In this document: in pieces, positions 28,866-30,747 of the stretch
Position numbering within the stretch: position 1 is the first letter of the stretch
How the letters are laid out: every line of letters starts with the position of its first letter
Source of the DNA: an uncultured Oscillospiraceae bacterium
GTDB taxonomy: Bacteria > Bacillota > Clostridia > Oscillospirales > Oscillospiraceae
Length of the DNA: 34,997 nucleotides
Reading direction: 5' to 3'
Assembly (NCBI GenBank): GCA_947581795.1
Contig: CANPVS010000022.1
Coordinates: 1-34,997, forward strand
Program-made: the position numbers and the translations under genes
Notes under the pieces: generated by a model
Told to the model about the DNA's origin: nothing
The model's input: the letters and a program-made list of their open reading frames with translations, nothing else
Database searches by the model: none

Positions 28866-29834
28866 TTAATGCTGTGTCTCAAACGGGCTTTTCTCCACCG
28901 GCTGTGCCAGTGGTAAGGACGCAAAGATATCCTCTGTCATGGCCAGGAAGTCCGGCCATTTCTTCGCCTTGGCAAGGCCCTTGGCGTAGGTCTCACCATC
29001 CTGGAAGCTGCCGATCATGTGCGCCCAGATGGCCTTCATCCGGTGCATGGCGCTGGATGGTCCTCCAAAGGCAGCGCAGTAGCACTCCCAGAGATCATTG
29101 TTGAAGGCTCGGAGCGTCTCCCTGTCCAGTTCAGCACCGTCACGACGGGCGACGAGCGCAGGGTCCGCCACCAGCCCCCGGCCGATCATAATGGCGCCCA
29201 GATCGGGAAAGCGCCGCTCCAAGGCCACGATGTCCGCAGGCGTAGTCACGTCACCGTTATAGCACACCGGCGCGTGGCTCGATATGAGCGCCTCGGCAAA
29301 AGTATCCACATGGACGGCTCCTGCGTACATCTCCTTAGCCGTTCGGACATGGACGATGAGCTCAGAGATCGGATAATCGTTGTATATGTCCAATATCGCG
29401 CCGAACTCCCCCGGCTCCCGGACGCCCAGCCGGGTCTTGACCGATATCTTCACGGGCGGCGCGGCGAAGATGCCGTCCAGAAGACGGCGCAGGCTGTCCT
29501 TGTCCGCCAGAAGGCCCGCCCCCTTCCCCTTGGCGGTGACGGTGCCGGAGGGGCAGCCAACGTTCAGGTTGACTTCCCCATACCCCATATCCGCCAGGGC
29601 GTTCGCCGCCCAGAGGAAGTCGCCGGCGTTCTTTGTGAGAAGCTGGGGCGTCAGAGGGACGTCCTCATTGTTCTCCGGCGCCAGCTGACGCAGCTGCCGC
29701 GGGGTGAACAGGTGGTTATAGGTAGGGCTGATAAAGGGCGTGAAATACATGTCCACGCCCGGAAAATACCGCCGGTGCAGCCGGCGGTAAATATAGTCCG
29801 TTATGCCCTCCAAGGGCGCAAAGTAGAGCTTCAT
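28866..29834 (-). CDS. tRNA-dihydrouridine synthase (Dus family)
   Basis: Dus enzymes are FMN-dependent and reduce uridines in tRNA D-loops. The 322 aa protein begins MKLYFAPLEGITDYIYRRLH (the PMxGVTD-like FMN-binding start), and has the LNVGCPSGTVTAKGKGAGLL segment with the catalytic cysteine, VKISVKTRLGV, LIVHVRT, VCYNGDV and IMIGRGLVADP. The D-loop positions modified cannot be told. The frame is open upstream to 29945, but that is only the repeat array read in frame. ATG 29834 has no Shine-Dalgarno sequence, and a -10-like TACAAT ends 6 nt before it, so a leaderless mRNA is likely. Confidence 0.93.
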   Translation of the reverse strand: MKLYFAPLEGITDYIYRRLHRRYFPGVDMYFTPFISPTYNHLFTPRQLRQLAPENNEDVPLTPQLLTKNAGDFLWAANALADMGYGEVNLNVGCPSGTVTAKGKGAGLLADKDSLRRLLDGIFAAPPVKISVKTRLGVREPGEFGAILDIYNDYPISELIVHVRTAKEMYAGAVHVDTFAEALISSHAPVCYNGDVTTPADIVALERRFPDLGAIMIGRGLVADPALVARRDGAELDRETLRAFNNDLWECYCAAFGGPSSAMHRMKAIWAHMIGSFQDGETYAKGLAKAKKWPDFLAMTEDIFASLPLAQPVEKSPFETQH

Positions 29835-29840
29835 GGCGGT

Positions 29841-29869
29841 ATTGTACCATGTCGTGCGGTTTCGCGCAA
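29841..29869 (-). promoter_or_regulatory. Promoter inside repeat copy 1, driving dus
   Basis: On the minus strand TTGCGC (29864-29869), 17 bp, then TACAAT (29841-29846) preceded by TGG, an extended -10. Only 6 nt separate the -10 from ATG 29834. The -35 half is poor, but the extended -10 compensates. Confidence 0.55.
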
Positions 29870-30038
29870 GCGAGAGCACGACTGGTATCTTTCTGGTACA
29901 ACAGCGCAGAGCGTCTGTTGTACCATGTCGTGCGGTTTCGCGCAAGCGAGAGCGCGACTGGCATTATTGATACAGCAACGCGGAGCGTCTGTTGTATCAT
30001 ACCCGCCACTTGCGCACAAGAGCGTGCTGTGATACACT
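29842..30038. repeat. Tandem array of three 74-76 bp palindromic repeats
   Basis: Copies start at 29842, 29918 and 29992, each with TTGTAYCAT, giving periods of 76 and 74 bp. Copies 1 and 2 share their first 36 bases and differ at one base over the first 44. They also share a (GCG)xAGCGTCTG end before the next copy. Copy 3 is degenerate and shortened. Copy 1 folds well: TTGTACCA (29842-29849) pairs with TGGTACAA (29894-29901), enclosing a GTCGTGC/GCACGAC stem and a TTCGC-GCAA-GCGAG tip. Copy 3 has TGTATCA/TGATACA. The array fills the 229 bp gap between divergent dus and the AlkZ-related gene, and no protein is needed to explain it. Confidence 0.85.
30010..30038 (+). promoter_or_regulatory. 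Promoter inside repeat copy 3, driving the AlkZ-related gene
   Basis: TTGCGC (30010-30015), 17 bp, then TACACT (30033-30038) preceded by TGA. This is the same TTGCGC-17-TACA architecture as the dus promoter, on the opposite strand. Transcription would start near 30045, before an AAAGGAG ribosome binding site at 30049-30055. Confidence 0.5.
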
Positions 30039-30063
30039 TTTCCCGGCGAAAGGAGCGGCGCAG

Positions 30064-30747
30064 ATGACGAGAGAGATACAGTCCGCCAAGGATATGGAGG
30101 CCCTGGCCCTGGAGTGGGGCTTCCTCCCCTTTTTTAAAAACGACATTCCCGGCTTCTCCGTGGAGGAGCACACCGCGCCCCAGTGCTGGTACGGCGCGGA
30201 AGACGACGACTGGGCCGCCTGGGACTGGAAGGGCCCGGTGGCCAGCGCGGGCACGTGCGTCTACGGCAAGCTCTTCTGGAAGAAAGCGGGCTTCGTGAGC
30301 CTGGAGTGGTTCCCGGACCTGGCCAACCTCCGCCGGGACGGATATGACTTCGACGCCCGCTTTGACGACGGCCTGGCCGCCTATAAGGACAAGGAGCTCT
30401 ATGACGCCGTGGCCCAGTGGGGCTCTCTCCAGACAGGACAGCTGAAAAAACTCTGCGGCTACGGCGGTAAGGACGGCAAAAAAGGCTATGAGAACTGCAT
30501 CACCCGCCTTCAGATGCAGACATACCTGAACGTGGCCGATTTCGACTACGCCCAGGACCGGTACGGCCGGCCCTATGGCTGGGGCATCGCCCGGTATACC
30601 ACTCCAGAGGCCCAATTTGGCTATGACGCCGTCACCGCCGCCTATCGACGCAAGCCGGAGGAGTCCCTCCGCCGGATGCTGGCACATTTGCAAAAACTCC
30701 TGCCCCAGGCCAGCGAGATACAGCTGTTGAAGCTGCTGAGAGGATAA
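30064..30747 (+). CDS. AlkZ-related conserved hypothetical protein
   Basis: This is a 227 aa protein that resembles uncharacterised clostridial proteins annotated as AlkZ-related (HTH_42 / winged-helix glycosylase-like). Seen in it are an aromatic-rich N-terminal half (WGFLPFFKNDIPGFSVEEH, WDWKGPVA, YGKLFWKKAGFVSLEWFPDLANLRRDGYDFDARFDDG) and a C-terminal half with GSLQTGQLKKLCGYG, ITRLQMQTYLNVADFDY and YGWGIARYTTPEA. The latter resembles a winged-helix segment (RLQ...Y). DNA glycosylase activity is not established, and the family link is from memory of the pattern. ATG 30064 has AAAGGAG 8 nt upstream; the frame is open further upstream only through the repeats. Confidence 0.75.
   Translation: MTREIQSAKDMEALALEWGFLPFFKNDIPGFSVEEHTAPQCWYGAEDDDWAAWDWKGPVASAGTCVYGKLFWKKAGFVSLEWFPDLANLRRDGYDFDARFDDGLAAYKDKELYDAVAQWGSLQTGQLKKLCGYGGKDGKKGYENCITRLQMQTYLNVADFDYAQDRYGRPYGWGIARYTTPEAQFGYDAVTAAYRRKPEESLRRMLAHLQKLLPQASEIQLLKLLRG

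Follow-up and report, generated by a model that had tools for sequence, protein, structure and literature searches.

The intergenic gap between dus, which encodes a tRNA-dihydrouridine synthase (28866..29834, minus strand; Pfam PF01207, E 4.8e-35), and an AlkZ-related gene (30064..30747, plus strand; Pfam PF24741 (AlkZ-rel), E 1.5e-79) contains a short palindromic sequence repeated in tandem, and raises the question of whether this repeat is a divergent promoter module serving both neighbours or a mobile element that has entered a promoter. The window, by which we mean the whole 34,997-nucleotide stretch of uncultured Oscillospiraceae DNA analysed here, has dus as the gene downstream of the array's left end. 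The original prediction saw three 74-76 bp copies with promoter-like patterns pointing in both directions, possibly a REP- or MITE-like element that had been co-opted.

A two-unit array between dus and an AlkZ-related gene

The repeat is real, with start-to-start spacings of 76 and 74 bp, but the gap holds two head-to-tail units rather than three. Copy 1 (29847..29922, plus strand) measures 76 bp from junction to junction, reads CCATG...CTGTTGTA and is matched by our covariance model at 29840-29925 (E 2.7e-20), its borders having been set by comparing filled and empty sites together with the fall in pairing at the junction. Copy 2 (29923..29996, plus strand, 74 bp) follows directly and is matched at 29916-29999 (E 1.9e-15), and the supposed third copy (29992-30038) consists of the last bases of copy 2, which stops at about 29996, followed by native DNA. 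Other parts of the earlier description held: read from the sequence, a single base separates copies 1 and 2 over 44 positions, and the unit is palindromic, with inverted repeats such as an 11 bp pair in copy 1 (29894-29904/29915-29925). Allowing up to 3 mismatches, a 20-mer from the unit is found at two places in the window and in none of 100 shuffles.

Each unit consists of a hairpin A followed by a hairpin B, and its two ends are direct repeats like TTATACCA. In copy 1, hairpin A (29851..29882, plus strand) pairs GTCGTGC with GCACGAC around a GG bulge and a GCAA loop, and hairpin B (29894..29925, plus strand) pairs TGGTACAACAG with CTGTTGTACCA; in copy 2 the corresponding hairpins lie at 29927..29958 and 29968..29999 (both plus strand), the second pairing TGATACA with TGTATCA and taking its outer bases from native DNA. 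For L019, a copy close to the consensus found in a relative, folding gives z = -7.3 as DNA and -7.4 as RNA, and across 25 copies standard pairs fill 98.1% of pair cells, with 31 double-change cells compared with 8.3 in shuffles.

Dispersed copies and their filled and empty sites

A covariance model built from 25 copies finds at least 24 copies at E <= 2e-9 in the draft genome that carries the window, a lower bound given that 150 of 1376 first-look candidates were scored; they stand among 40 rows at E <= 1, of which the rest are weaker, partial or antisense, and BLAST with the array also finds further copies in this genome. The similarity search proposed in the original prediction therefore shows a dispersed unit that is not unique to this locus. 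Matches at E <= 0.001 are present in 31 of the 35 genomes searched within the genus, each genome giving between 0 and 40 rows, and BLAST with one unit matched 25 of 60 genomes, the window's own included, all within the genus, with zero matches in the 25 genomes outside it. Eight named loci at 63% identity or more belong to MAGs of uncultured Oscillospiraceae whose isolate names start with Lapin. In an order-wide draw of 394 genomes, with 11 candidates scored per genome, at least 15 had matches at E <= 1e-7, six of them in another family, and several of these matches form arrays spaced 108-111 bp. One locus from another family of the order, L339, carries a distant relative of the element (1-401, a 110-111 bp array) in which the hairpin A core TGCGGTTCC...GGGAGCA and the word ATTATACCA are preserved, with a different outer stem and an additional hairpin.

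All genomes are drafts, and arrays probably break assemblies, making copy counts lower bounds. Copies were seen at contig ends at G018:C98 9643-9723, G034:C31 21049-21130 and G025:C62 1-88. Viral contigs gave no exact match to a 35-letter pattern of the genus consensus, from which the window's own hairpin A variant differs, and phage and plasmid records gave zero matches with copy L019 as query. Longer autonomous versions were absent from the best 45 of 77 partial hits viewed with up to 60 bases of flank, which is a weak test.

For junction analysis, 140 stretches around copies were fetched from 14 genomes, amounting to 2.2 Mb with the window, and nhmmer on these regions returned 208 copies distributed over 158 loci, of which 125 are single, 22 double, 5 triple and 6 quadruple. 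None of the 33 arrays is mixed in strand, and 42 of 50 spacings are 76-79 bp. The anchor test was passed by 156 loci, which provide 129 non-redundant left flanks and 123 readable right ends. We obtained 22 filled/empty pairs covering 19 filled loci (16 with orthologous ones counted once), and by eye a single TATA-like word in the empty site corresponds to two in the filled site at 18 of the 19. Clear cases are L138, L262 and L274 against L224, L201 against L193, L216 against L265, and L244 against L181 and L192, as well as the own genome's copy beside a gene whose ORF reads as a UvrD-like helicase, filled against empty L166; L195 has no clear word at its empty site, and the words are diverged in L265, L240, L250 and L215. 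At the dus locus itself, 2 of 20 readable orthologs are filled (G000 and G014, each with the two-copy array) and 18 are empty, counted over 21 of 23 strong dus loci, with L297 and L298 (partial matches) omitted and L285 lacking a readable start. The array common to G000 and G014 would most simply reflect an insertion that predates their split. Filled and empty sites between relatives demonstrate mobility, and together with the dispersed copies and tandem arrays they support the suggestion of a REP- or MITE-like mobile palindromic element.

A structured RNA gene or riboswitch-like leader could also account for so strong a fold (z -7.4) with covariation, yet its absence from 18 of the 20 readable dus orthologs and the lack of a clearly recurring downstream gene family make this reading very improbable, and no Rfam family reached its gathering score in 29600-30300. 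The one sub-threshold match there was sroD (19.2 bits vs 50), and for this stretch a known RNA family was rejected.

Copies in head-to-tail arrays are 92.6% identical within loci and 79.2% between them, 44 of 70 array copies find their best match in their own array, and one locus seen in two genomes (L024 and L042) is single in G033 and double in G018. A scan of 30 of 33 loci gave one copy in L306, although L277 shows two at this locus.

Target word, predicted promoters and junctions

The left junction has the profile ATTATACC (A.72, T.71, T.83, A.67, T.96, A.90 across 129 loci), which reads GGTATAAT on the other strand. Empty sites in relatives show that a pre-existing ATTATA/CCA-like word is the insertion point, and its opposite strand is an extended -10 promoter word, TGGTATAAT. 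Flanking sequence has the matching layout: native CAA, the TTG of a -35, lies at exactly 17 bp in the right flank of 45 of 123 loci, compared with 0-7 loci for each other spacing from 3 to 36. Left ends are turned toward a gene start at 95 of 129 loci, and among intergenic loci with two neighbours at 91 of 114, against 52.5% in a random intergenic control (p 1e-9). Distances from left end to gene start cluster around 20-60 nt, and at five loci the distance is 6-7 nt.

In the window, the target word is the native dus -10 box, TACAAT (29841..29846, minus strand), 6 nt before the ATG; of 18 element-free dus orthologs, 15 have TACAAT at this box and 3 have TAAAAT. Ahead of it the element supplies TG (29848-29849) and, at 17 bp, a putative -35-like TTGCGC (29864..29869, minus strand), which lies in a loop that differs among copies. 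The leftward promoter-like string accordingly lies where it had been claimed, with its -35 at 29864-29869 and its -10 at 29841-29846, and we infer a hybrid dus promoter in which a native -10 is joined to an element-borne TG and -35-like string. The native dus -35, TTGTGC (30014..30019, minus strand), identical in the empty orthologs L278 and L279, now stands 17 bp from TACAAC (29991-29996), the -10-like right end of the element. The rightward string was likewise correctly located (30010-30015 and 30033-30038), but this TTGCGC-17-TACACT (30010..30038, plus strand) lies outside the repeat and can be read at equal spacing in empty L278 and L279, so that the predicted promoter of the AlkZ-related gene is native. 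Of the promoters assigned to both neighbours, then, the dus half does involve the element and the other is readable without it; a divergent promoter carried by the repeat was rejected, the element taking part in the left half alone. Here and throughout, promoter activity and transcription are predicted from sequence.

The dus -10 box lies 6 nt before the ATG in the window (29832-29846) and at 6-7 nt in 17 of the 18 element-free orthologs, the exception being L296, whose chosen dus start falls directly at the box. Such spacing suggests leaderless transcripts. In the fetched regions, TGnTAnnnT ends 6 nt before the start in 12 of 1590 ATG genes, 5 nt before it in 1, and 7 or 8 nt before it in none, counts that take in element-bearing and orthologous loci.

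Orientation toward gene starts (95 of 129 loci), with the extended -10 intact at most left junctions, would also be expected if the unit were a promoter or regulatory module, favoured by selection because it expresses both neighbours and spread by useful duplication. Words without an element, however, have an identical gene context. Among 343 unoccupied words with up to 1 mismatch, CAA is found at 99, compared with 45 of 123 copies (p 0.11); at least 4 of 6 -35 bases at 16-18 bp are found at 129 of 343 and 42 of 123, respectively; and intergenic words face gene starts in 183 of 227 unoccupied and 95 of 118 occupied cases (p = 1). Since unoccupied words are equally promoter-like, recognition of the word suffices for targeting, and recognition of promoter context beyond it was rejected. 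As the rightward promoter is native, the -35-like string varies among copies and no gene family clearly recurs beside them, we regard a selected module as improbable. Nor do the target sites point to co-option, since most are promoters already, the target word being itself the extended -10 box. Copies are rarer than words inside ORFs called by our own script (9 of 129 vs 109 of 343); insertions into ORFs are probably lost by selection, and wrongly called starts may account for part of the 9.

The exact position of the junction follows from pairing between the element's internal arm (R2) and its right end (R3). Variant bases of the two are complementary in 104 of 108 loci with a readable R2 beside the right end, whereas at loci where the first native flank base (+1) is not C, R2 is complementary in just 7 of 25, with 7 more forming G-T. 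R2 pairing thus drops beyond TATA, which places the end of the element at TATA and the beginning of native DNA at CCA. The consensus has no terminal inverted repeats, its ends (CCATGTCGTG... and ...AGCGTCTG(TTATA)) being direct repeats.

A DDE-type miniature element that duplicates a TTATA(CC) target would likewise leave two words in filled and one in empty sites, and variant bases of the left word and right end do agree in 79 of 97 single-copy loci (those with readable R1 and R2), which could reflect duplication or target choice. Where the left word has T, though, another base stands on the right in 9 of 12 loci, a mismatch that appears to speak in part against plain target-site duplication; with a consensus free of terminal inverted repeats and with R3 complementary to the internal R2 (104 of 108), we consider a DDE-type element unlikely.

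Taking these observations together, the repeat is probably a non-autonomous two-hairpin mobile element of about 77 bp that inserts in one orientation into ATTATA/CCA, the extended -10 box TGGTATAAT on the other strand. Its copies are dispersed, its empty sites have one word and its filled sites two, its junction falls after TATA, it lacks terminal inverted repeats and it forms head-to-tail arrays. In the mechanism we propose, the right-end TTATA would travel with the element, so that each insertion recreates the target word at both ends, and the recreated words would permit further insertion or duplication and hence arrays. The downstream gene would retain its -10, preceded after insertion by TGG and a -35-like string from the element, making insertion presumably nearly neutral, while the native -35 would come to face TATAAC or TACAAC at the element's right end. 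A recombinase would act in trans on the hairpins, either in the manner of single-strand (HUH) enzymes or by site-specific insertion of a circle.

One way in which such an element might find its target is through the internal arm R2, with its paired R3, which would then predict the variable base in the left-hand host word. Copies with R2 = C sit at G-bearing words (TTGTACC) in 13 of 15 cases, compared with 6 of 82 others (p 5e-10). It is possible, and we put it forward tentatively, that the element is an orphan guide-programmed one that hops between -10 boxes, keeps promoters working, is mobilised by an undescribed enzyme and has relatives in another family of the order (L339). Against this, R2 = C also tracks an element lineage marker (p 3e-7), so that shared descent confounds the association, as does crossover position; matches continue past the junction in only 7 of 25 cases; and empty L224 has A where filled L138 has G, in a pair whose left flanks are 73% identical.

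At one locus represented in two genomes (L221 9974-10059 and L225 7923-8008, with L206 as the empty counterpart), the right flank reads TATAGC in one filled ortholog and in empty L206, and TATACC, matching the hairpin arm, in the other filled ortholog. This locus suggests that hairpin arms can also be corrected after insertion, possibly by template-switch correction of an imperfect palindrome.

Candidate mobilisers and known systems

No candidate enzyme has a distribution that fits the element's, bearing in mind that genome incompleteness weakens each absence. Searches of 60 genomes gave Y1 transposases in 23, and no match in the high-copy genomes G012, G014, G026, G030 and G031; among 30 of 34 Y1 matches viewed with up to 1500 bases on each side, one has a clear copy beside it, and in no case do copies bound the gene, and another Y1 locus holds an element match at E 0.68. 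IS110 (a DEDD recombinase) is matched in 13 of 35 genomes at E <= 0.001, 11 of them over the cut-off, and in none of G003, G030 and G001, all many-copy genomes. Y2 was found in 1 of 35 genomes, as was UPF0236, which is linked to ISLre2; a TnGBS/ISLre2-type element would be expected to have a UPF0236/p-MULT transposase. All four were rejected as linked mobilisers. Gene families beside copies were also considered and rejected, none with at least 4 members being clearly enriched (smallest p 0.0014, uncorrected, for a family that reads as phosphoglycerate mutase).

This search also bears on another reading, in which the repeat belongs to the GTAG or CGTC/RPE class of REPs and a RAYT (Y1) transposase moves it. 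The bulged hairpin and the dispersed, non-coding copies (9 of 129 called within ORFs) are in keeping with such an origin, and CGTC elements (PMC3733652) have a CCA-like tail reminiscent of the CCA at the left junction here. Neither GTAG nor CGTC, however, stands at the foot of either hairpin in the consensus, CGTC occurring instead in the loop side of hairpin B. Adding the Y1 loci viewed, one with a clear copy and none bounded by copies, and the high-copy genomes in which Y1 is unmatched, we find a RAYT-mobilised REP improbable.

The two-hairpin element points to a simple route to a low-harm life in a dense genome, namely to target the -10, keep it and bring a new upstream half. Its natural filled and empty promoter pairs could be used for testing the effects of insertion on expression, and it points to a further enzyme that would mobilise it in these uncultured gut bacteria, a large group. 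We found no description of this family in the literature searched, a coverage that mostly excludes subscription journals.

Members of the IS200/IS605 family and their miniature forms have subterminal hairpins, no inverted repeats, a fixed target word on one side and a fixed orientation. The element shares the fixed adjoining target word, the single orientation and the ends without inverted repeats, but differs in that no Y1 gene bounded by element ends was seen in the 30 loci viewed. Sigma-A promoters are also the target of TnGBS, ISLre2 and ISKra4, with a defined orientation for TnGBS and ISLre2; these enter 15-17 bp upstream of the -35, carry inverted repeats and use DDE transposases (PMC3942029). 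Unlike TnGBS and ISLre2, the element inserts inside the -10, and UPF0236 is present in just 1 of 35 genomes. Pneumococcal BOX elements are similarly modular hairpin repeats with tandem internal units, but have inverted ends and target duplications, a comparison made by description only (PMC3049150).

REP and Rickettsia RPE palindromes (GTAG- and CGTC-tagged) are likewise short dispersed hairpins, some in tandem clusters, and the CGTC families, with their CCA-like tail, have no known transposase (PMC3733652). The element differs in lacking a GTAG or CGTC foot and in being a fixed pair of two different hairpins. Its head-to-tail arrays share an 8-bp word, whereas head-tail dimers are described as under-represented (GTAG) or negligible (CGTC) among REP/RPE (PMC3733652). 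Correia repeat enclosed elements of Neisseria are small mobile repeats too, with promoters formed from element and native sequence at either end; they have inverted repeats (PMC2649163) and duplicate TA (some CA) targets, whereas here the ends are not inverted and the target is the whole extended -10 word. REP/RPE and Correia elements are the closest kinds, and among miniature palindromic mobile elements the combination of -10 targeting with direct-repeat ends appears to be new.
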